Assembly: GCA_017445475.1 (NCBI GenBank)
Contig: JAFSUB010000018.1
Coordinates: forward strand, 1-64,000
Source of the DNA: Alphaproteobacteria bacterium
GTDB taxonomy: Bacteria > Pseudomonadota > Alphaproteobacteria > RF32 > CAG-239
Reading direction: 5' to 3'
Length of the DNA: 64,000 nucleotides
Shown here: positions 1-47,123 of the stretch, piece by piece
Layout: each line of letters starts with the position of its first letter
Position numbering within the stretch: the stretch's first letter is position 1
Position numbers and translations under genes: made by a program
The notes under the pieces: model-generated
Seen by the model: the letters and a program-made list of their open reading frames with translations, nothing else
Database searches by the model: none
What the model was told of the DNA's origin: nothing

Positions 1-1445
1 GTAACAGGTGTTTTTGTTGTGTCGTCGCTCAAAGCTGTTAAGCAACCGTTTGAAACGCAATAAGCACTTGCGGTGCACACAAAAGTTCCATCCGATTGCT
101 CGGTTAAATTATTGCAATACAAATTAGAGCAGGTTTTCGGTGTTATCTTGTGGCAGTCTCGGCTACCGTCTGTTGCGGAAATGGTGTGATTGGAGCAAGA
201 ATACATATACGGATCATGACTTGGGCAAGTTCCTTCTTGATAGCCTTCTGTTTTGCAGGTTCTGATGTTTGCGCTGCAAACAGTTGAGTCTGTTGCATCA
301 GAATTGAAAACAGTTATGGGTGAGCCGGCGTAAGCGTTTAAGCCTGCTATGCAGTTAGAGCCGGAACATACGCTTGTTGCCGTGCAGGAGAAGTTTCCGT
401 CGTCGTGCTCGATCAAATTTTTGCAATACATACGGGCGCATAGTTTCGGTTCAAGTTTATAGCAATATTTACTGCCGTAGTTTGTGGAAACAAGGGTGTC
501 TTGACAGTCATAAAAATTCGAATCGTAAGCGCTTGTGCTCGGACATTTTCCTTCAGATTGATAGCCTTCCGTCTGACAGGTTTTAATTTGTGAGGAATAG
601 CAAAGCTTTGTATCAGACTGATCAGTGCCGCTTTGAACGGTGACGGGCGTTTTTGACGTGTCATCTGTCAAATCCCACAAACAACCGTTTGAAGAGCAAT
701 TAGCGCTTGCAGTGCAAACAAAAGTTCCATCCGATTGCTCGGTTAAATTATTGCATTTTAATTTGGCGCACGTTTTCGGTTCAAATTTATGGCATTTTTG
801 AAGGCCGGAGATTGTGTGAACGTAATCGTCGGAACAGGAATACATAAACGAATCGTAAGTATTTGCATTCGGACATTCTCCTTCATATTGATAGCCTTCC
901 GTCTGACAGGTTTTAATTTCTTCGGAATAACAAAGCGTTGTATCAGACGGATCAGTGCCGCTTTGAACGGTGACGGGCGTTTTTGACGTGTCATCTGTCA
1001 AATTCCATAAACAACCGTTTGAAGAGCAATAAGAACTTGCGGTGCAAACAAAAGTTCCATCCGATTGCTCGGTTAAATTATTGCATTTTAATTTGGCGCA
1101 TGTTTTCGGTTCAAATTTATGGCAATAGTTATTCCAAAAATCATGAGTAGATGTTGGACTTTCTGTGCAGTCAAAAAAGTATGTGTCATAGCTTGCATAG
1201 TAACAAGAGCCTTTGTGTTCATAACCCAAAGATTGACAGGTTTGAATTTCGTTTGTGTAACACTCGACGCTGCTGTTTGAATTTTGGCTTCTGACGATGG
1301 CTCGAATATCGCCTGTTTGAGGTATGTCTCTAAAGGAGATTGATGATAAAGTGCCGTTATATACCTCGCAGGTTATGCCGGTTCCGTCTTCAAGCTCGGT
1401 AATTGTGGAGGTAGAGTTCCGACATTTGAGCTTATCGCATGTTTT
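1..1445 (-). repeat. Tandem ~330-bp coding repeats inside the Cys-rich gene
   Basis: Five repeat units are recognisable by the PKTC...KLKC-type motif, with unit boundaries near 1445, 1118, 788, 458 and 147. Spacing is about 330 bp, except about 310 bp for the last. The units at 1118 and 788 are nearly identical at DNA level: the blocks starting at 720 and 1050 match for about 60 bases, as do those around 570-660 and 900-1000. The block at 81-116 shares the same core, while the units at 458 and 1445 are diverged. The array may continue past the left edge. Confidence 0.8.
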
Positions 1446-2567
1446 GAGTGTTAAAGTTCGGCAAATGCTGCCGTATGCGTCCGTTTGCGGAGAAGAGTCG
1501 TTGCAGACATAGCTTTCGGAATCAAACGGATCAGAACATGAACCTGACTGCTGATAGCCCAAAGATTGGCAGGTTGGGCCGCAGCGCCAGCAAGTGTGGC
1601 CTACCAGCTGATATGGTCCGAATTGAGCCAGATTTGCGGCACAAGGTGCGTTTTGATAATCTTCCGCACAGCCTATGACTTTAACGCAACTGCCGACGGG
1701 GGATTGGCATGAAAAGCCCTGCTGGCAAGAAGAAACATAATTTTTGTTTGCGTTACACACGCATTTCGCGCATCTCGGCTCGCTTGGTTGAAGCTCTATG
1801 GTTTCGGAAGTTAAGTTGCAGGTTAAGGTTTCGATTTTATCATAGCCGTCGTTGCAGACAACTTCGTCTTCATTACAATCGTAACATATTTGCTGATTGT
1901 CGCCGAGCCAGTGGAGATGTTCGGTGTAATTTGATGTTAAGCAGGTTGCAACAAGATTGTGGGTTTCGCAGGTTTTGGCTTCGCATTTGCCGCACGTATC
2001 GCTAGAATTGTCCTTTGTGAATGTCCAGCCTGAAGAACCGGAAGAGCCGCAATCGTTTGCTGATGTGTGATATCCGTCTTTGCACACGCATTTGCCGCAT
2101 AAAGCGTTTTGTGAAAATGTTTGAATATGTTGCGAACCGTCACATGTTAAATCGGCAGTTAAGCTGTGGTCTTCCGGACATGGTGTGCCGATACATCTGT
2201 TGCAGGTTATGGTTTCATCGCCGACACAAAGGTCTTCTTGGGAAAATCCTAATCCACTGATGGCGCAAACGGTTTCGGTTAATGCTTCGTTGCAATCGGC
2301 CGGTAAATGACTTTGGGTGCATAAATAACACCTTTTACCGCCGGAAAATTGAAGAACTTTTGTTGTGTCAAGCCACCAGCCGTTGTCGCAAGTCGCATTT
2401 GGCGCCATACATTGTTCTAAATCGGTTGCATATCCTTCGGGACAATCCGTTTCAACGGAAGTCGACGATGCCGGAAAACACGAGTCAGACATCGGTAAAA
2501 AACAGGTTTTTGCATCTGATTTTAATGCAAACAAGCAAGCGAACGCACATAACAGTAGTTTACGCAT
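1..2567 (-). CDS. Secreted cysteine-rich tandem-repeat protein (3' partial, runs off left edge)
   Basis: I translated the minus strand from the ATG at 2567-2565 by hand. The frame stays open for about 855 codons to base 1, so the C-terminus lies outside the window. The start has AAAGGA 8 nt upstream and a good promoter behind it. Residues 1-20 (MRKLLLCAFACLFALKSDA) read as a signal peptide. The rest is very rich in Cys, with many CxxC pairs such as CGKCVC, CAKCVC and CWRCG. The C-terminal visible part is built of repeats of about 105-110 residues carrying PKTCAKLKC, LTEQSDGTFVC, SSNGCLW and IKTCQTEGY. I do not recognise a named family. It is probably an exported or surface protein whose cysteines form disulfides; metal binding is an alternative. 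Function unknown. Confidence 0.85.
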   Translation of the reverse strand, partial: MRKLLLCAFACLFALKSDAKTCFLPMSDSCFPASSTSVETDCPEGYATDLEQCMAPNATCDNGWWLDTTKVLQFSGGKRCYLCTQSHLPADCNEALTETVCAISGLGFSQEDLCVGDETITCNRCIGTPCPEDHSLTADLTCDGSQHIQTFSQNALCGKCVCKDGYHTSANDCGSSGSSGWTFTKDNSSDTCGKCEAKTCETHNLVATCLTSNYTEHLHWLGDNQQICYDCNEDEVVCNDGYDKIETLTCNLTSETIELQPSEPRCAKCVCNANKNYVSSCQQGFSCQSPVGSCVKVIGCAEDYQNAPCAANLAQFGPYQLVGHTCWRCGPTCQSLGYQQSGSCSDPFDSESYVCNDSSPQTDAYGSICRTLTLKTCDKLKCRNSTSTITELEDGTGITCEVYNGTLSSISFRDIPQTGDIRAIVRSQNSNSSVECYTNEIQTCQSLGYEHKGSCYYASYDTYFFDCTESPTSTHDFWNNYCHKFEPKTCAKLKCNNLTEQSDGTFVCTASSYCSSNGCLWNLTDDTSKTPVTVQSGTDPSDTTLCYSEEIKTCQTEGYQYEGECPNANTYDSFMYSCSDDYVHTISGLQKCHKFEPKTCAKLKCNNLTEQSDGTFVCTASANCSSNGCLWDLTDDTSKTPVTVQSGTDQSDTKLCYSSQIKTCQTEGYQSEGKCPSTSAYDSNFYDCQDTLVSTNYGSKYCYKLEPKLCARMYCKNLIEHDDGNFSCTATSVCSGSNCIAGLNAYAGSPITVFNSDATDSTVCSANIRTCKTEGYQEGTCPSHDPYMYSCSNHTISATDGSRDCHKITPKTCSNLYCNNLTEQSDGTFVCTASAYCVSNGCLTALSDDTTKTPV

Positions 2568-2644: not shown

Positions 2645-2674
2645 TTGCTTAAAAGATAAGGCGTTATGTATAAC
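2645..2674 (+). promoter_or_regulatory. Possible promoter of the first aas gene
   Basis: TTGCTT (2645-2650), an 18-nt spacer and TATAAC (2669-2674). If used, transcription would begin near 2681. That is downstream of the longest possible ORF start and supports the shorter start at 2738. Confidence 0.35.
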
Positions 2675-2737
2675 ATGGAAAAAACCGTTGCTATTTGTGT
2701 GGATTTTTTTTATAAAGGGGTCTTAAAGGAGATGTCT

Positions 2738-4906
2738 ATGCAAAAATTTATCCGTTTTTTGTTGCGTGTTATGTTGCATATCTTAAAGGTTCGTGTTTCG
2801 TTTGAAATTGCACCGGAAGATTTGCCTAAGAAAGCCATATATATTTCAAACCACGCCTCGTGGCTTGATCCGATTATTTTGTTTGCGTATTTGCCGAACA
2901 ATCCGTTTTTTTTGTTGCACCCGAGGCTTTATCGAAATAAGTGGATTAAGTTCTTTTTAGGTCATGCACCGAAAACCGAATTTAATTATATGGATCCGGC
3001 AAACATTAAAAAAGTGATTCAGGTGATTAACCATAACCGTTGTTGCGTGATGTTTCCCGAAGGTATGATGACCGAAAACGGCGATATGATGAAAATTTAT
3101 GAGGCTCCCGTGATTGTTGCCGACCGAACGGATGCGCCTTTTGTGCCGATTTGGATTAGCGGTGCGGAATTTAGTCCATTTTCAGACACAAAAGGGTTTG
3201 TGCCGCACAGGCCGTTGCCGAAAATTAGGGTTAAAGTGAGCAAACCGCAAAAAATTGTGGTTAACGAAGCCTTAAAGAAAAATCGTGATTATTTGAAAGA
3301 TCAGACTTATGTCATTTTAAACAATCTGCGCTTTGAAACGCGTTTCAGAAACAATGTTGGGCTTTTCAAAAAACTGGTGCGCACATCAAAAATTTACGGT
3401 AAGACGGGTTTGTTTGAACGTCGGTTTGTTTTGGAAGATGTTAAACGCCAGCCTCAAACATATATGGATATTATCGTTAAAAGCCATCTTTTGGGCGCGA
3501 AATTTTCTGTTTTGACCGAGAGCAAAGAAAATGTGGGCGTGATGTTGCCAAACAGCGTTGAGAATGTGGTTACGTTTTTTGCGCTTTCGGCGCATAATCG
3601 TGTTCCCGTTATGCTCAATTTTTCTTTGGGATATGCGATTGTGCGTTCAATGTGCAATACGGCTCAGGTGAAAACCATAATCACATCTTCAACCTTTGTT
3701 CAAAAAGCGAAGCTTGAAGAAACCGTTTCAAAGCTTGAGCAAAGCGGTTTAAAAATTGTTTTTCTTGAAGATGTTGCGCAAAAGATTACAACATTTGATA
3801 AAATTAAAGCGTTTTTGTTTTACAAAATTAAATATGTGCCGTTTAAGCAAAATCCGAATGATCCGGCTGTTATTTTGTTTACTTCCGGTTCAGAGGGCGC
3901 GCCGAAAGCGGTTGTTTTGTCGCACGCCAATGTTCTTTCAAATGTGATTCAGGCAAGTTGCGAAGTGCAGCTTCATACGCAAGATTTGCTCTTCAACTGC
4001 CTGCCGATGTTTCACAGTTTCGGGCTGACAGTCGGCACATTGTTTCCGCTTCTTACCGGTGCAAACACCTTTTTGTTCCCGTCGCCGTTGCAATATCGAA
4101 CCATCACCGAGCTTTTATACGAGCTTAAAGCCACAATGGTTATTGCAACCGATACGTTTTATCGGGTTTATGCCAGACTTTCACACCCTTATGACTTTAG
4201 AAAAATCAGGCTTTGTATTGCAGGTGCCGAAAGCGTTAAGCAAGACACGCGCAATATGATGGCCGAACGTTTGGGTGTGATGCTTTTGGAAGGTTATGGC
4301 ACAACCGAATGCTCGCCGCTTTTAACCATTAACACATTGCTGTTTAACAAATATGGCACGCTTGGCAAGCTTGTTCCGGGAATTGAATATCGCTTGGATG
4401 ACGTTGAAGGCATTGAAAATGGTAAGGAACTTGTTGTTAAAGGTCCGAATGTGATGTTGGGCTACATCTTGCCGGAAAATCCGGGTGTTTTGGTTGCGCC
4501 CGAAAACGGTTGGTATAAAACAGGTGATGTGGTTGAAGTTGATGATTTGGGCTTTATTAAAATTGTTGACCGTGTGAAACGCTTTGCAAAAATCGGCGGC
4601 GAGATGGTGTCGCTTACGGCTGTTGAAAACTATGCTAAAGAAATTTGCCCAAAAGATGAGTTTATGTGTGTCGCCGTTGCCCTTCCTCACGCCAGAAAAG
4701 GCGAGCAGATTGTGCTTGTGTCAAACAACGAAAATTTAAGCAAAAAAGATTTTTCCGCTTTTTGCCAAACCAAAGGATTGTCCGAACTTTATACGCCTGC
4801 TGTTTTTCTTTTTCGAAAGGATTTTCCGGTTTTTGCGACGGGCAAGGCAGACAAAGTTTCACTGAAAAGCTGGGCTTTAGATGAAATGAAAAAGCTAGAC
4901 ATGTAA
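2738..4906 (+). CDS. aas: Bifunctional lysophospholipid acyltransferase / acyl-ACP synthetase (Aas family), copy 1
   Basis: A 722-residue protein with the two-domain layout and length of E. coli Aas (719 aa). Residues 1-200 form a PlsC-type acyltransferase with the H-x4-D motif (H39, D44 in NHASWLD) and FPEGMMT. The rest is an AMP-forming acyl-activating domain with the P-loop-like FTSGSEGAPKA, GTTECSP and TGDVVEVDDLGF. The family acylates 2-acyl-lysophospholipids at the inner membrane and activates fatty acids with ATP. The ATG at 2738 is chosen over an upstream in-frame ATG at 2666 because it follows AAAGGAG with 6-nt spacing and aligns with the start of its paralogue at 43224. It stands alone, divergent from the Cys-rich gene and convergent with rubrerythrin. 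Confidence 0.85.
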   Translation: MQKFIRFLLRVMLHILKVRVSFEIAPEDLPKKAIYISNHASWLDPIILFAYLPNNPFFLLHPRLYRNKWIKFFLGHAPKTEFNYMDPANIKKVIQVINHNRCCVMFPEGMMTENGDMMKIYEAPVIVADRTDAPFVPIWISGAEFSPFSDTKGFVPHRPLPKIRVKVSKPQKIVVNEALKKNRDYLKDQTYVILNNLRFETRFRNNVGLFKKLVRTSKIYGKTGLFERRFVLEDVKRQPQTYMDIIVKSHLLGAKFSVLTESKENVGVMLPNSVENVVTFFALSAHNRVPVMLNFSLGYAIVRSMCNTAQVKTIITSSTFVQKAKLEETVSKLEQSGLKIVFLEDVAQKITTFDKIKAFLFYKIKYVPFKQNPNDPAVILFTSGSEGAPKAVVLSHANVLSNVIQASCEVQLHTQDLLFNCLPMFHSFGLTVGTLFPLLTGANTFLFPSPLQYRTITELLYELKATMVIATDTFYRVYARLSHPYDFRKIRLCIAGAESVKQDTRNMMAERLGVMLLEGYGTTECSPLLTINTLLFNKYGTLGKLVPGIEYRLDDVEGIENGKELVVKGPNVMLGYILPENPGVLVAPENGWYKTGDVVEVDDLGFIKIVDRVKRFAKIGGEMVSLTAVENYAKEICPKDEFMCVAVALPHARKGEQIVLVSNNENLSKKDFSAFCQTKGLSELYTPAVFLFRKDFPVFATGKADKVSLKSWALDEMKKLDM

Positions 4907-15196: not shown

Positions 15197-15856
15197 ATGA
15201 AAAAATTTAACGAACATGGACGTTCTATGATTGAAATGCTTGGCGTGCTTGCCATTATCGGCGTTTTGTCAGCCGGTGGTTTGGCGGGTTATGCAAAGGC
15301 GATGTTCAGACATAGATTAAACACAACAATGGATCAAATTACGATGCTCACCACCAACATTCGCACGATGTATGGCGCGCAGACCGATTATGCCGGTTTG
15401 ACCAAAGACGCAATGAGCTTAAACCTCATTCCGACGGCGATGGTTCCCGCAGGGTCAAGCGTGGACGGAACGTCAAGTATGTTAACTTTGATGAGTCCGT
15501 TTAAGGGTAAGGTCGAAATTCAAACCTCAAGCGTTTACGGGCACAACGGAACGCAGAACAACAGCGATTCGGCTTTTGTGATTGCATATTATAATCTGCC
15601 GCGTGATGCGTGTGTTGCTTTGGCTTCGGCCGATTTTGGCTCAGGCGCGGGTTCGGGCTTTATCGGCGTGATGGTTCACGGCGAAGGTGTTGAGTTAAGT
15701 GCCGGTACGGGAACAGCACATGATGCAGCGGTCGGTGATGGTATTGAAAGCACATCGGGCGAACGTCAGGAAGGTGCGCCTTATAAGGTTACGGATGCTC
15801 TTGAAGAGTGCAACGTAACAAATGATAATTCTGTTGTTTCTTGGAAGTTTTATTAA
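15197..15856 (+). CDS. Type IV prepilin-like protein
   Basis: A 219-residue protein with a short leader ending in Gly8 and then RSMIEMLGVLAIIGVLSAGG. This is the class III (prepilin peptidase) signal and hydrophobic helix, with Glu at mature position +5. Residue +1 is Arg rather than the usual Phe or Met. The remainder is Gly/Ser/Ala-rich with a Cys pair near residues 136 and 212 that may form the pilin D-loop. It has its own promoter and terminator and no visible pilus assembly genes nearby. It could be a major pilin, a minor pseudopilin or a competence pilin. Confidence 0.8.
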   Translation: MKKFNEHGRSMIEMLGVLAIIGVLSAGGLAGYAKAMFRHRLNTTMDQITMLTTNIRTMYGAQTDYAGLTKDAMSLNLIPTAMVPAGSSVDGTSSMLTLMSPFKGKVEIQTSSVYGHNGTQNNSDSAFVIAYYNLPRDACVALASADFGSGAGSGFIGVMVHGEGVELSAGTGTAHDAAVGDGIESTSGERQEGAPYKVTDALEECNVTNDNSVVSWKFY

Positions 15857-16058: not shown

Positions 16059-18470
16059 ATGTTCAGGTTTTTTTCGGCCATTGTGAGCGCCGGTTTGTTT
16101 TTTGTGATTTTGGCACTTGTGGCCGTTATGTTGTTTTTCGGGCAAATCAGTGCCGATTTGCCGGATTATCGGCAGCTTGCAAAATATGAGCCGCCGGTAA
16201 CCACGCGTTTGTTTGCCGGCGACGGGCAGCTTTTGATGGAATATGCAGCCGAAAAGCGCCTGTTCGTGCCTGCCTCCAAAATTCCGGACAAAGTGAAAAA
16301 TGCCTTTATCGCAGCCGAAGACAAACATTTTTACAGCCATGGCGGCATAGATTATTTGGGCATTGCCCGTGCCGTTTTGAGCAATCTTAAAAATTTCGGC
16401 AAGGGCAAACGGCCGGTCGGGGCTTCAACCATCACCCAGCAGGTGGCAAAAAATTTTTTCTTAAATGCGGAAGTTTCATATATTCGGAAAATTAAAGAGG
16501 CGATACTTGCCAGCCGTATGGATAAGGCTTTTAGCAAGGAGCATATTTTAGAGCTTTACTTAAATGAGATTTATTTGGGCAATCGTGCTTATGGTGTTGC
16601 GGCGGCAGCACTCAACTATTTTGACAAGTCTTTAGATGAGCTTACGATTGCTGAAATTGCTTATTTGGCGGCGCTCCCGAAAGGACCGAACAATTATCAT
16701 CCGTTAAAAAGGCATCAAGCCGCAATTGCTCGTCGCAATTGGGTTATCGGTCGCATGGAAGAAGACGGATATATCACGCAACAAGAAGCTGAAAATGCCA
16801 AAAAACAACCTTTACAAGTTGTTCAAAGAACAAACGGTTTTTTGAAAGATGCGGAATATTACAGCGAAGAAGTGCGCCGAACCATTGTGCACAATTTGGG
16901 GGATAATGCTTTATATGAGGGTGGGCTGATTGTCCGCACAACGATTGATCCGAAAATTCAAACAATTGCCACAAAAGCCTTGCGAAAGGGGTTGATTGAA
17001 TATGACAGGCGGCATGGTTGGCGCGGTGCGGAAAAAAATATCAGCCTTGAAGGCGACCATCTTGAAACCTTAAAACAAACGGTTTTAACAAAAGGTGCAG
17101 AGGAAAATTGGCAAAAAGCGGTTGTGCTTGAAGCGCAAAAGCAAAAAGCGGCCATTGAGCTTGAAAACGGTGAAAAGGGCAAGATTTATCTTAAAGACAT
17201 TGCATGGGCGAGGCCTGCGCTTGAGTTGGGATATGTGGGCGAAACGCCGTCAGATGTTTCAAAAGTTGTGAAAACAGGTGACGTGATTTATGTTGAAAAA
17301 CTTGACAAGGACGATGCCTACGGTTTGAGGCAAATTCCGAGCGTTGAGGGCAGTATGGTTGTGATTGATCCGCACACGGGTAAAGTTTTGGCTCTTGTCG
17401 GCGGATTTTCTTTTTCAAAATCGCAATTTAACAGGGCAACGCAGGCATATCGGCAAACAGGTTCGTCTTTCAAGCCGTTTGTTTATTTGGCGGCGCTTGA
17501 GATGGGCTATTCTCCGAATGATTTAATTTTAGATGCGCCTTTTGTTTTAGATCAGGGGCAGGGGTTGCCCAAGTGGAAACCCGAAAATTACAGCAAAAAG
17601 TTTTATGGGTTGATGACCTTAAGACAAGGTGTTGAACAATCTAAAAATCTGATGACCGTGCGTTTGGCGCAAGACATCGGTATGGATAAGGTTGCAGAAA
17701 TGGCAAAGCGCGTGGGCATTAACGACAATTTGCCGCAATATCTTTCTTCTGCTTTGGGTGCAACGGCGGTGCGTGTTTTGGACATGACATCGGCGTATGC
17801 AATTATTGTTAACGGCGGCAAAAAAGTAACGCCATATTTGATTGAGCGCATTCAAGACAGAAACGGCAAGACAATCTATAAAGAAGATACATATGATTGT
17901 GCGGATTGCAATGCGCCAAAGTGGGAAAATCAAAATCCGCCTTTACATCCGGACACACGCGAGCAGATTATTGATGCCATCACGGCTTATCAGATGACAT
18001 CTATTTTAGAAGGGGTTGCCCTTCGCGGAACAGGTGCGCGTTTGAGCGGTTTGGGAAAACACGTGGCAGGAAAAACCGGCACCACAAACGAAAACAAAGA
18101 CGCGTGGTTTATCGGGTTTTCGCCCGATTTGGTGGCTGGTGTTTATGTTGGGTTTGACGAGCCGGTGAGTTTGGGCAAAAAAGAAACGGGGGCTTCGGCG
18201 GCTCTGCCCATCTTTTTTGACTTCATGAAAGAAGCGTTAAAAGGTGTGCCAAACACAAATTTCAGAATTCCGGACGGTGTGAAGCTCGTGCGTATCAATC
18301 CGAAAACGGGCAAACTTTCCGAGCCTTCGGACGAAACGGTTATTGTTGAAGCCATCAAACCGGAATACAGTTTTGACCAAACAAAGCAACGCACCATCGG
18401 TGTTGGTGAAGATGAGGTTGTTCTTGACAGAGAAAATGATTCGGGCTTGCAAATCGGGGGAGAATATTAA
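16059..18470 (+). CDS. mrcA: Penicillin-binding protein 1A (class A PBP)
   Basis: An 803-residue bifunctional peptidoglycan synthase anchored by one N-terminal membrane segment (residues 7-28). The GT51 glycosyltransferase domain has catalytic Glu87 in EDKHF, GASTITQQVAKN and the KIKEAILASRMDKAFSK region. The transpeptidase domain has SxxK with Ser469 (SSFK), SxN in QSKN and K672-TGT. The family polymerises lipid II and crosslinks the chains. It is followed after 2 nt by prfB, an adjacency I recall from other Alphaproteobacteria, and heads an operon that continues through 23237. Confidence 0.96.
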   Translation: MFRFFSAIVSAGLFFVILALVAVMLFFGQISADLPDYRQLAKYEPPVTTRLFAGDGQLLMEYAAEKRLFVPASKIPDKVKNAFIAAEDKHFYSHGGIDYLGIARAVLSNLKNFGKGKRPVGASTITQQVAKNFFLNAEVSYIRKIKEAILASRMDKAFSKEHILELYLNEIYLGNRAYGVAAAALNYFDKSLDELTIAEIAYLAALPKGPNNYHPLKRHQAAIARRNWVIGRMEEDGYITQQEAENAKKQPLQVVQRTNGFLKDAEYYSEEVRRTIVHNLGDNALYEGGLIVRTTIDPKIQTIATKALRKGLIEYDRRHGWRGAEKNISLEGDHLETLKQTVLTKGAEENWQKAVVLEAQKQKAAIELENGEKGKIYLKDIAWARPALELGYVGETPSDVSKVVKTGDVIYVEKLDKDDAYGLRQIPSVEGSMVVIDPHTGKVLALVGGFSFSKSQFNRATQAYRQTGSSFKPFVYLAALEMGYSPNDLILDAPFVLDQGQGLPKWKPENYSKKFYGLMTLRQGVEQSKNLMTVRLAQDIGMDKVAEMAKRVGINDNLPQYLSSALGATAVRVLDMTSAYAIIVNGGKKVTPYLIERIQDRNGKTIYKEDTYDCADCNAPKWENQNPPLHPDTREQIIDAITAYQMTSILEGVALRGTGARLSGLGKHVAGKTGTTNENKDAWFIGFSPDLVAGVYVGFDEPVSLGKKETGASAALPIFFDFMKEALKGVPNTNFRIPDGVKLVRINPKTGKLSEPSDETVIVEAIKPEYSFDQTKQRTIGVGEDEVVLDRENDSGLQIGGEY

Positions 18471-41052: not shown

Positions 41053-43224
41053 TTATGCAGACTTTGCAAGCTCGGCCAAAACTTCTTTTTTCAAAGATAC
41101 ATTGTCAACTTTGCCTGTTGCCGATGTCGGGATTTTGTCGCGGTATATAATTCGGCGCGGCATATAAAGCTCGGGATAGCCGTTTTGCCTTATAAAATCG
41201 CGCAACATATCCGTTGTTAAGGTGTGCTCGTTTGTCACCAAAACAATTTGCTCGCCTTTGTGCTCGTGCGCAACGGCAACCACACCGCAACAAAAATCTT
41301 CTTTCGTGTCAAAAGCCTCGTTAATCATATTTTCAACCGCTTTGAGCGAAACCATCTCACCGCCGATTTTTGCAAAGCGCTTGATGCGGTCTTTGATGGT
41401 TATAAACCCGATTTCATCAATTTCGACCACGTCGCCCGTGTGATACCAGCCGTTGTGCGGCGGAACCAAAACACCCGGATGTTCGGGCAAAATGTAGCCG
41501 GCCATCACATTGGGGCCTTTCACAACAAGCTCGCCGCCTTTTTCGATGCCGTCAACTTTTTCCAAGCGACATTCCATACCGGGGCAAAGTTTGCCGATGG
41601 TGCCAAACTTGTTAAACACCATATTGTTGCCCGCAACTGCCGGCGAACACTCCGTTGTGCCGTAGGCTTCCATCAACCGTGTGCCCAAACGCTCATTTAA
41701 GATGTTGCGCGTTTCAAGCTTAACGCCCTCTGCACCGGCATAAACCAAACGAAGCGAGCCGAAGTCAAGCGGGTGTGAAATTTTGGCGTAACTTCTGAAA
41801 AATGTGTCTGTGCCAATCATCACCGTTGCGCCGAGCTCATAAAGAAGGTCGGATATAACGCGGAAATGCAACGGCGAGGGATATAAAAACACCCTTGCAC
41901 CCTGATATAGTGCGTAAAGCGTGCCCAAAACCAAGCCGAAACTGTGGAAAATCGGCATTGAGTTCAACACAATGTCTTTGCGGTTTAAGGTTTCAAAAGT
42001 TGCAATCTGCCACACGTTTGAAATGACGTTTTTGTTTGAAAGCACAACCGCTTTCGGTGCGCCTTCCGAGCCGGAGGTGAACAAAATGACGGCTCTATCG
42101 TCTGCCGTTGCCTTATAAGGCACATATTTCACCTTATATTGTAAGAGACCTAAAATTTTTGCAAAAATCGAAATCTTCTTGCCGACATCTTCCAAATAAA
42201 TCACTTCATAACCGCCTTCTTTGATGGCGTCAATCAAAGATTCTAATCCCGCTTTTTTCACAAACATTTTTGATGTAACAACCTTTTTTGCCTCGACGGT
42301 TTTAAGACCGCTCAAAACATTTTGCGCGCCGGCGCTGAAGTTGAGCATAACCGGAACTTGCCCATAAGCATTAAAGCCGAAAAACGTGCAAATCGCCGCA
42401 ACCGAGTTCGGTAGCAAAATGCCGATAGGTTCTTGAAATTTTGAAATTTTTGCAAAATAGCGCCCCAAAATATATGATTTGAGCATAATGTCCTTAAAAG
42501 TGTTCGGTTTTCGCGTAATGTCTTCCAAAACATAAGGACGGCGCAAGCCGAAACAACGTTTGGCGTGAATTTTTGAAGCCTTAATCAGCTGTGTAAACAC
42601 AGTCAGCTTCGGGTTGTAAATCGATTCGAACATTTGCTCGCGCATAATCATATATATTTCGTTTGAAATGTGGTTGCGCTGGTGTCGAAGTTCATCTTTA
42701 AGCTTTAAGGGACGCGGCTTGTCAACTACAATTTTAACATGCGGAAAATAGCGATGGGGCAATCTGCCGCCCGTTTTCGAAAAATGGCAATATTGCAAGC
42801 CGTTAATCCAAATCGGAATAACCGGAGCGTCTGTTTTATCGGCAAGCAAGCCGGCAGATTCGTATATTTTCATAATGTTGCCGTTGGTGGTCATGCGGCC
42901 TTCGGGGAAAATCATACACAAACGGCCGGAATTGACCGTTGCAATCAAATTTTTCAAGTCAGGCACGTCCAAATTGCCATATTCCATAATGTCGGCCGTT
43001 TTCATCAAAAGGCGAACCCAATAGTTTCGATAAAGCTGTCCATGAAGCGCAAAAACAGGGTTTCCGGGCAAAAAGGCAAACAAAACAATGGGGTCAACCC
43101 ACGACACGTGGTTTGAAATATAAACGCCTTTCGTCGGCAGCTCGGAAAGGTCAAAACGCATTTCAAAACGCACCTTAAAGGTCTTAAAAAAACATCTTAA
43201 AATAAAGCGCACAACATCACGCAT
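41053..43224 (-). CDS. aas: Bifunctional lysophospholipid acyltransferase / acyl-ACP synthetase (Aas family), copy 2
   Basis: A 723-residue paralogue of the protein at 2738. It has the same two domains, with H39 and D44 in NHVSWVD, FPEGRMT, FTSGSEGAPKA, GTTECSP and TGDVVEIDEIGF. The ATG at 43224 is chosen because GGAG lies about 8 nt upstream and the N-termini of the two copies then align; an in-frame ATG exists at 43254. It lies downstream of an acyl-ACP thioesterase on the same strand. Both copies keep all visible active-site residues, so neither looks decayed. Different acyl or lysolipid preferences are plausible but not readable. Confidence 0.85.
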   Translation of the reverse strand: MRDVVRFILRCFFKTFKVRFEMRFDLSELPTKGVYISNHVSWVDPIVLFAFLPGNPVFALHGQLYRNYWVRLLMKTADIMEYGNLDVPDLKNLIATVNSGRLCMIFPEGRMTTNGNIMKIYESAGLLADKTDAPVIPIWINGLQYCHFSKTGGRLPHRYFPHVKIVVDKPRPLKLKDELRHQRNHISNEIYMIMREQMFESIYNPKLTVFTQLIKASKIHAKRCFGLRRPYVLEDITRKPNTFKDIMLKSYILGRYFAKISKFQEPIGILLPNSVAAICTFFGFNAYGQVPVMLNFSAGAQNVLSGLKTVEAKKVVTSKMFVKKAGLESLIDAIKEGGYEVIYLEDVGKKISIFAKILGLLQYKVKYVPYKATADDRAVILFTSGSEGAPKAVVLSNKNVISNVWQIATFETLNRKDIVLNSMPIFHSFGLVLGTLYALYQGARVFLYPSPLHFRVISDLLYELGATVMIGTDTFFRSYAKISHPLDFGSLRLVYAGAEGVKLETRNILNERLGTRLMEAYGTTECSPAVAGNNMVFNKFGTIGKLCPGMECRLEKVDGIEKGGELVVKGPNVMAGYILPEHPGVLVPPHNGWYHTGDVVEIDEIGFITIKDRIKRFAKIGGEMVSLKAVENMINEAFDTKEDFCCGVVAVAHEHKGEQIVLVTNEHTLTTDMLRDFIRQNGYPELYMPRRIIYRDKIPTSATGKVDNVSLKKEVLAELAKSA

Positions 43225-44978: not shown

Positions 44979-47123
44979 CTATTTTCTGGCTTTTTCCGGC
45001 ATTTGCTCCGGCGCTTTCGGCTCGGCATGCAAAATCAGCTCGGTAACGGGTTTATAAACCGTTTGTTGCCACGGGCTCGGTGCGTCATAAACGCACTCGC
45101 AGATTTTGAGGCCGACGCTTCTCAAAACGGTTTCGGTGGGCAAGAACAAATCTTGTCCGTCTTGTGTTTTGAGCCCGATGTGTGCCACACCGTCCACGCT
45201 GCCGTGTGCATCAATCAAAATGCTGCCGATTGTTAAATCTTGTATTTTGGTATCCGCAATAATTTCGGCGCCTTTGTCTTCACTGTAACGATAGCCCATA
45301 ATAGAGGCATGGTTATCAATGTAGTTTTCGGTGCCGTTGTCAAAAGCCTCAACATCAAGAAGTCCCAAAGTCATAAAGCCTGTCTGTCCGACTTTCGGTA
45401 AGTCAAGATTTAAGGGCAGCGGCGTGTATTCGGTTGGCGTGTCAAGAGTGAGCAGAGCAATGTTTTTGCTCAAGTTGATACGAACGGCACGTGCTGTGAA
45501 CTCTTTGCCGTTGATGGTGCGGATTTTATAAGTGTTTTCCTGTTCGCCAATCAGTGAGGCCGACGTTAAAACAAACGTGTCAGAGACAATCAAACCGGTG
45601 CCTTTTTGGCCTTTAAGGTTTGAAATTTCAACAACCGATGCGCGGAGTTTGTAAAGATTTTCCGGCGTTAAAACATCATAAGGCTCGTGAGCGACAATAC
45701 ATAAGTCGTCAACAACCTGAACTTGTGTTTCAACCCACGTGTCGTCAACAACAGCGCAGTTTTCGCTTGGCTCTTGCAAACATTGTTCGACAACAGCCGT
45801 TTCAATTTCAACACATTTTTCGGGCTGCATATCGCAGGAAAGTTCCACGTTTTGAGCAAAAGCCGGACACTCTTTGATGTTGAAATCTTTGCGCGAAATT
45901 TCGCATTGTTTCACTTGGCGCAAAGGTTCGGCATAATGGCATTTTGCCGGATCCAGAGCAATTTCTTCGGCAATTAAAGCATTGCGCTCGGCTGCCATCT
46001 CTTCAGGGCTTAAGCGGATCATTAACTGATCTTCAAAGCCTCTTAATGCCTGAAGCTCGCGAACTGCGTCGGCAAATGCGGCTTCAATCAGCGCAACTTC
46101 GCCATTTTCTTCGCCGACATTCAGACGAGCATAGCCTGTTGTCGTGCCTTCAAAAAGAACTTTGGTTTTGGAAAGATTTGTCAGTCTCCAATGAACCGTC
46201 ATTTCAGAAGAACCCGAACGTTTTTCGGTTTTTGTTGCATTCTTCCAGTCATATCCGTCGCAAATGTTCATATAAAAATCTGTTATCTCAGCCGTTAAAA
46301 CATATTCCGGCAATATAGACGGGGTTTGCTGCAAACACAAATCCGTCGGCTTTTTAATGATGTTGTAACATTCGCCCGTAACATTTTCAAAGACCTTTGA
46401 AAAGTTCATATCTTTTTCGAAAATGCGGCCTTGGTTTAAGATTGCCTCTTTGTTGTAGCGACGGCAACCGAAAATGCGAAAACGATAATCACCCAATTTG
46501 TGTGTGGGTTTGTTTGACATATCGGTTAAATTGAAATCGACATGCTCTAAATAAAGCGGTGCCATATCGCAGCAACTTTTAGGTTCCGGTGCATAAACAG
46601 GCACAATTTCAGGCTGCGGCTCAAAAATTTCGGGACATGTCATGGCCGGCTCAAACTGCACTTCGCAACAGGGCAAAGCAGGACAAGCCATAATCGGCTC
46701 GGGTGCAGGCTCTTTGCATTTCTCGCAGGGCCCTGTATCAATGAGCGGGCCTTTGTTGTAGCACCTCTCGCATGAACCCGTGTCAAAAATCGGACCGCTT
46801 TTATGGCAGCTCTTGCAATCACCGCCCGGAAACAGGCTTCCGTCTTTGTCGCGCATTGCATATTTCATGACGGGCTTATCAGAAAACATCGGCGCAGGGC
46901 TGAAACGCGATGACAGGCTGTATTCGGGAGCCTTGTATTTTGGCAAGGCGCTGCTTGCCGTGCCATATCTGGTATAATTATGGCGGCGTATCATCATATC
47001 CCTAACGCTTTGATTGTGTTTTGCAGTGGAGCTAACCTGTGCGTTTGGGGCGACAAAAGCGCCCGTTAAAGACACAACCCCGATAAGAACAAGTAAAAAT
47101 TTAGACGGCTTAAAATTTTTCAT
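44979..47123 (-). CDS. Exported Cys-rich protein with degenerate trypsin-fold C-terminus
   Basis: A 714-residue protein with signal peptide (to about residue 29) and a block of three CxxC pairs: C103/C106, C118/C121 and C133/C136, each followed by a GP(L/I)xDTG-type spacer. A Pro/Cys-rich stretch follows (residues 137-190). The middle (200-400) is beta-rich and carries VTGECYNIIKKP and SEMTVHWRLTNLSKTKVLFEGTT. Residues about 495-650 resemble a chymotrypsin/HtrA fold (GTGLIVSDTFVLTSASLIG; SKNIALLTLD). The His site is Ser and no GNSGG is seen, so it is probably inactive. CKSCH is formally a heme-c motif, but the next pairs lack His. I do not know this family. Confidence 0.75.
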   Translation of the reverse strand: MKNFKPSKFLLVLIGVVSLTGAFVAPNAQVSSTAKHNQSVRDMMIRRHNYTRYGTASSALPKYKAPEYSLSSRFSPAPMFSDKPVMKYAMRDKDGSLFPGGDCKSCHKSGPIFDTGSCERCYNKGPLIDTGPCEKCKEPAPEPIMACPALPCCEVQFEPAMTCPEIFEPQPEIVPVYAPEPKSCCDMAPLYLEHVDFNLTDMSNKPTHKLGDYRFRIFGCRRYNKEAILNQGRIFEKDMNFSKVFENVTGECYNIIKKPTDLCLQQTPSILPEYVLTAEITDFYMNICDGYDWKNATKTEKRSGSSEMTVHWRLTNLSKTKVLFEGTTTGYARLNVGEENGEVALIEAAFADAVRELQALRGFEDQLMIRLSPEEMAAERNALIAEEIALDPAKCHYAEPLRQVKQCEISRKDFNIKECPAFAQNVELSCDMQPEKCVEIETAVVEQCLQEPSENCAVVDDTWVETQVQVVDDLCIVAHEPYDVLTPENLYKLRASVVEISNLKGQKGTGLIVSDTFVLTSASLIGEQENTYKIRTINGKEFTARAVRINLSKNIALLTLDTPTEYTPLPLNLDLPKVGQTGFMTLGLLDVEAFDNGTENYIDNHASIMGYRYSEDKGAEIIADTKIQDLTIGSILIDAHGSVDGVAHIGLKTQDGQDLFLPTETVLRSVGLKICECVYDAPSPWQQTVYKPVTELILHAEPKAPEQMPEKARK

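Follow-up and report, generated by a model that had tools for sequence, protein, structure and literature searches.

Among bacteria, Cys-rich exported proteins are familiar from the envelopes of the chlamydiae and planctomycetes. The proteins considered in the current report share those three attributes, but they are much larger, are built from repeats and vary strongly between paralogs, and the protein at the center of the analysis has no match in Pfam. The VSPs of Giardia (PF03302) resemble them in being large, exported and Cys-rich, in belonging to gut organisms, in being encoded by several related genes and in combining variable extracellular arrays with one conserved end. That end is a C-terminal membrane anchor in the VSPs and N-terminal in the family described here, which is bacterial, is not enriched in CxxC, gives no sign of switching and yielded no Pfam match to PF03302 at E<=10. 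EGF-like, GCC2-GCC3 and ephrin-receptor-like repeats are likewise short units in tandem, each with an even Cys count, but their Cys spacing differs and none is matched above the Pfam cut-offs. A fourth comparison concerns secretion: in TcpF and CofJ, the signal for the type IVb route is a short mature N-terminus that includes a key aromatic residue (PMC9565799). We put at roughly one in two the probability that the locus encodes one of a set of lineage-specific, exported, modular repeat proteins that are probably armoured with disulfides and displayed outside the cell as a coat or adhesin.

The gene lies at the left end of the window, by which we mean the whole 64,000-nucleotide stretch of DNA analysed (positions 1-64000 of contig C5 in a 1.33-Mb genome, G000, of 27 contigs). 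As the preliminary description stated, the minus strand is open from 2567 through the left edge; the frame (3-2567) begins with an ATG at 2565-2567 and continues for 855 codons. It was cut by the assembly, since the left edge of the window is the physical start of C5. Of the 855 visible residues, 85 are Cys (9.9%). The start signals named in the same description are also found, all on the minus strand. A ribosome-binding-like AAAGGA (2575-2580) stands 7 nt ahead of the ATG, and a consensus match to a sigma-70-like promoter (TTGACA-17-TAACAT, with TG ahead of the second hexamer; 2604-2632) scores 10/12, in a region where four sites reach >=9/12 vs 1.5 expected. By a simple rule of our own, residues 1-19, MRKLLLCAFACLFALKSDA (2511-2567), would form a signal peptide that is predicted to be cleaved after A19, ahead of KTC, and the mature N-terminus carries the leader AKTCFLP (2493-2513). 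Elsewhere in the window, two paralogous proteins of 746 and 723 residues, encoded at 2666-4906 (plus strand) and 41053-43224 (minus strand), resemble fused acyltransferase/acyl-ACP synthetases.

Part of the missing sequence was very probably recovered from another contig, a step that had been proposed. The only further place found by searching the genome with the gene was C7:2-670 (locus L003), a 222-residue, stop-ended frame in which the repeat that fills residues 332-855 of the window protein occurs twice, once almost complete and once complete. It is very probably the other (3') end of the gene, encoding the last 222 residues. No overlap was found when the C5 and C7 contig ends were compared; the longest identical stretches common to the two run to about 50 bases, and long exact matches between repeats are a common cause of assembly breaks. 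With both pieces counted, and given that the C7 piece very probably belongs to the same gene, the whole protein is at least ~1,100 residues long. Near this 3' end, a minus-strand gene (L003:2387-5290) encodes a subtilase with an N-terminal ankyrin-like stretch, a glycine-rich linker and a C-terminal region resembling an autotransporter barrel.

Two kinds of array make up the body of the visible protein. The ~110-residue repeats noticed earlier are real (107-111 residues) but confined to residues 332-855, whereas residues 45-271 hold a different module of ~41 residues, with the pattern GYxT..C...GW......CYxC..KTC, in four copies. On the minus strand, these lie at 2292-2435 (residues 45-92; 54.7 bits, E 2e-14) and 1968-2075 (residues 165-200; 44.5 bits), followed by two divergent copies at 1854-1949 (residues 207-238; 23.3 bits) and 1755-1847 (residues 241-271; 17.6 bits). 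The five longer repeats follow on the same strand at 1242-1574, with 8 Cys residues, at 912-1241, 582-911 and 261-581, with 10 each, and at 3-260, where the contig end cuts the fifth and 9 are visible; the complete copy on C7 also has 10. Repeat and module have similar CY/CH...KTC endings; kinship between them was considered and is unsupported (hhalign probability 3.5%).

The window protein has company in its own genome. A survey of Cys content that covered about 310 kb of the genome, with 46 proteins called exported by a simple rule, found four proteins with 9.5-11.7% Cys, all on C5: the window gene product and those of 64633-67644, 69980-72607 and 90330-93716, just to the right of the window (L111, L112). 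These four account for 398 of the about 510 Cys residues in the 46 exported proteins, and each opens with a signal peptide and then A[KR]xCFLP. The paralogs at 64633, 69980 and 90330 have about 250 N-terminal residues in common. The window protein and paralog 90330 have the leader as their sole clear similarity (54% over 26 residues, E 1e-4); the repeat arrays differ strongly between paralogs, and the window protein has arrays of its own. As judged by these features of sequence, the window protein is a member of a family composed of a signal peptide, the A[KR]xCFLP leader and Cys-rich arrays.

Relatives of the organism encode similar proteins, as a profile of the 41-residue module indicated. 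Of 152 genomes from the taxonomic family, 27 gave a match, mostly in long ORFs and spread over 6 of 16 genera; a class-wide draw of 385 genomes gave 2, both from the same taxonomic family, and no match came from the about 380 genomes sampled in other families of the Alphaproteobacteria. Shuffled control proteins gave no match of >=10 bits, whether or not Cys positions were kept. In the genomes sampled, the protein family is, by this profile, restricted to one taxonomic family and hence lineage-specific. An N-terminal domain of ~450 residues occurs, whole or in part, in 8 of 10 same-genus relatives, where it follows a similar leader or forms part of a long, Cys-rich frame of up to 2,912 codons, and in relatives, several of which come from rumen samples, giant Cys-rich ORFs of as much as 2.9 kaa also open with A[KR]xCFLP. 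A scan of GTDB genomes with the ~450-residue domain found nine loci, whose records name yak reticulum, yak rumen, reindeer and RUG, the last of which we take to mean rumen. The 110-residue repeat was convincing in the own genome only, with four weak matches elsewhere among the 152. Searched as a DNA pattern, the leader was counted in 80 of the 152 family genomes, and this figure was not retained as a measure of breadth because the sampled matches were mostly antisense or off-frame in an unrelated conserved gene; the own genome has four matches, that at C12:37121 off-frame. Other architectures were also seen in relatives. Giant Cys-rich ORFs of two of them (L055:2-8209, minus strand, and L054) open with ankyrin-like plus glycine-rich sequence and do not carry the CFLP leader, and in one relative (L052:2-2646 and L053:56-1501, both minus strand) smaller Cys-rich exported proteins with KCPFG..FC come after giant Cys-rich ORFs.

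The initial reading that no recognised family accounts for the protein has held up. The Pfam search gave nothing above cut-off (the best match was CIDE-N, at 17.1 bits vs a cut-off of 23.5), the NCBIfam search no match, the PDB search of the window protein nothing significant and the PHROGs search nothing, so no characterised family was matched by profile. Structure prediction gave five models, of which the best, for a segment of three modules aligned with modules from relatives, reached pLDDT 83 and pTM 0.56 and the other four pLDDT 44-73. The pLDDT 83 model consists of short strands and turns, and a fold search with it returned no significant PDB or viral match. Its best PDB fold match by Foldseek, to the EGF-repeat protein Pfs25, was non-significant (E 1.3, prob 0.07), and Pfam found no EGF-like domain. 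Prediction for two 110-residue repeats gave pLDDT 35 and no usable model. Such proteins are not described in the literature searched, the coverage of which was incomplete.

The preliminary description spoke of dozens of Cys residues in CxxC pairs and took them to imply heavy disulfide bonding or metal binding. The pairs do not withstand a count: the 855 residues contain 7 CxxC, vs 8.2 +/- 2.5 in shuffles, and none is in the 110-residue repeats. CC and CxC are depleted (0 vs 7.9 and 2 vs 8.1 in shuffles), and the Cys residues are spaced more evenly than in shuffles (sd 6.1 vs 9.3 +/- 1.0). In the complete 110-residue repeats the Cys number is even; the two Cys residues that distinguish the first repeat from the others were lost together and are neighbours. 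In paralog 90330, the array comprises 17 units, each about 48 residues long and each with 6 Cys residues; on the other side, the Cys total of mature paralog 64633 is odd. The even sets, the joint loss, the even spacing and the lack of a CxxC excess favour disulfides, and on these patterns the Cys residues of the exported repeat proteins are probably paired with each other. The alternative, that they bind a metal (zinc or iron, for instance), either exclusively or in combination with disulfides, and make a metal-crosslinked coat, seems to us unlikely. It would be compatible with the observation that Giardia VSPs lose protease resistance upon chelation (PMC6341118), and with thiols that may stay reduced, as neither DsbB nor VKOR was found; but the lack of CxxC enrichment, the absence of CxxC from the longer repeats and the depletion of CC and CxC run against it, as do the rarity of His and the abundance of aromatic residues in the window protein.

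The redox setting answers in part the earlier suggestion to look for DsbA and DsbB. The own genome encodes a DsbA-like protein that has CGYC and a membrane segment at its N-terminus, but DsbB (PF02600) was found in none of the 152 genomes searched from the taxonomic family, where the controls matched and a divergent DsbB could escape the Pfam profile, and VKOR in 0 of 11 same-genus genomes, the own genome included. The disulfide half of the earlier interpretation is therefore favoured by the Cys patterns and left with neither of these two partners. Anaerobes that have DsbA-like proteins with no known partner have been reported (PMC12453122), and in Helicobacter the oxidase HP0231 suffers only slightly when DsbI is lost (PMC4597128); given these precedents, an unknown oxidant is possible. 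A rubrerythrin-like gene within the window, together with the gut sources of the relatives, suggests, and does not prove, an anaerobic life. The window also encodes an exported trypsin-like protein (44979-47123, minus strand) with 26 Cys residues, many of them in CxxC groups near the N-terminus. On the whole, what was first observed at this locus has been confirmed in part, and what was made of it has been supported in part.

Under a further alternative, the products would be soluble or surface lectin-like proteins whose repeats bind glycans of the host, of feed plants or of microbes. Repeats of paralog 90330 carry C-x5-C-x-SSG-C, as does scytovirin (PF20888), and those of the window protein a similar CTxxxxCxSNGC; in addition, the Cys-rich ORF of one relative (L057:1-2910, plus strand) carries at its end an Lcl_C domain (PF07603) that may be a binding tip. 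The likeness to scytovirin is nonetheless below threshold wherever it was measured. Paralog 90330 reached E 0.02 and 15.8 bits against PF20888, vs a cut-off of 27, and E 0.45 against PDB entry 2jmv; the window protein was not matched by Pfam; and comparison of a repeat of paralog 90330 with one of the window protein gave an hhalign probability of 8.6%. The motif in common is short and driven by its Cys residues. An identity with scytovirin was accordingly rejected, and we consider a lectin-like role quite unlikely.

The very high Cys content and the presence of several paralogs in a single genome would also suit a disulfide cross-linked layer beneath or on the outer membrane that stiffens the cell in the manner of the chlamydiae and planctomycetes. 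A probable peptidoglycan polymerase gene, read by eye at 16059-18470 of the window, speaks against that role, no Pfam family of Cys-rich wall proteins was matched, and arrays that vary so strongly between paralogs would be unusual in a structural layer; such a layer is improbable here. An assembly artefact or a decaying gene, which the position at a contig end within a repeat might bring to mind, is highly improbable, as the frame has 855 open codons, the paralogs are intact, the 3' end on C7 is complete with its stop, and the 110-residue repeats differ from each other by pS of 0.38-0.82 and pN of 0.19-0.36, with dN/dS, where measurable, of 0.21-0.49, which indicates that the frame is under selection at the protein level.

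We return, then, to exported modular proteins that serve as a coat or adhesin. In this reading a Sec signal peptide and the A[KR]xCFLP mature N-terminus head the protein, and behind this leader would come arrays of small Cys-bearing modules that appear to be rebuilt from one species to the next. Most likely, such arrays fold into many small disulfide-pinned units, which together would make an elongated body, resistant to proteases, that is exposed on the outside of the cell and serves in the gut, probably the rumen, as a coat or adhesin. Neither an anchor nor a conserved C-terminus was found in the Cys-rich proteins, which weakens the case for attachment to the surface. We infer the oxidised state of the Cys residues, the surface display, the task in adhesion or protection and the route of export from the features described here.

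Export might proceed by way of a type IVb-like pilus with its secretin, with the CFLP leader as the putative signal. The genome has genes for bundlin/PilS-type pilins, PilO, T2SSE, T2SSF and a secretin. The last four form a cluster at C12:42900-51300 (L093, L117); a bundlin-like pilin gene stands alone at 15197-15856 of the window, and further pilins that match Bundlin/PilS are encoded on C12. A short mature N-terminus behind the signal peptide is the common element here, as it is in TcpF and CofJ, and A[KR]xCFLP, which contains an aromatic residue, is a plausible candidate for the export signal by analogy with them. In contrast to those proteins, the window gene lies outside a pilus operon, the pilus genes not being near the Cys-rich genes, and the cargo would be a giant repeat protein; the proposed likeness is one of position and context. 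The most complete version of our account, in which giant disulfide-armoured proteins, specific to a lineage of apparently anaerobic gut Alphaproteobacteria, leave the cell through the type IVb pilus by means of the CFLP signal and are oxidised by the DsbA-like protein with a partner other than DsbB or VKOR, must be regarded as unlikely.

Obligate anaerobes are reported to tend to keep Cys out of their exported proteins (PMC12453122), and exported proteins of about 10% Cys in gut bacteria with no recognisable DsbB run against this reported trend. If their Cys residues are paired, an oxidation route of an unknown kind must exist in these bacteria. The family offers a compact leader motif and a candidate surface layer in uncultured gut bacteria, whose contacts with their hosts are little known.
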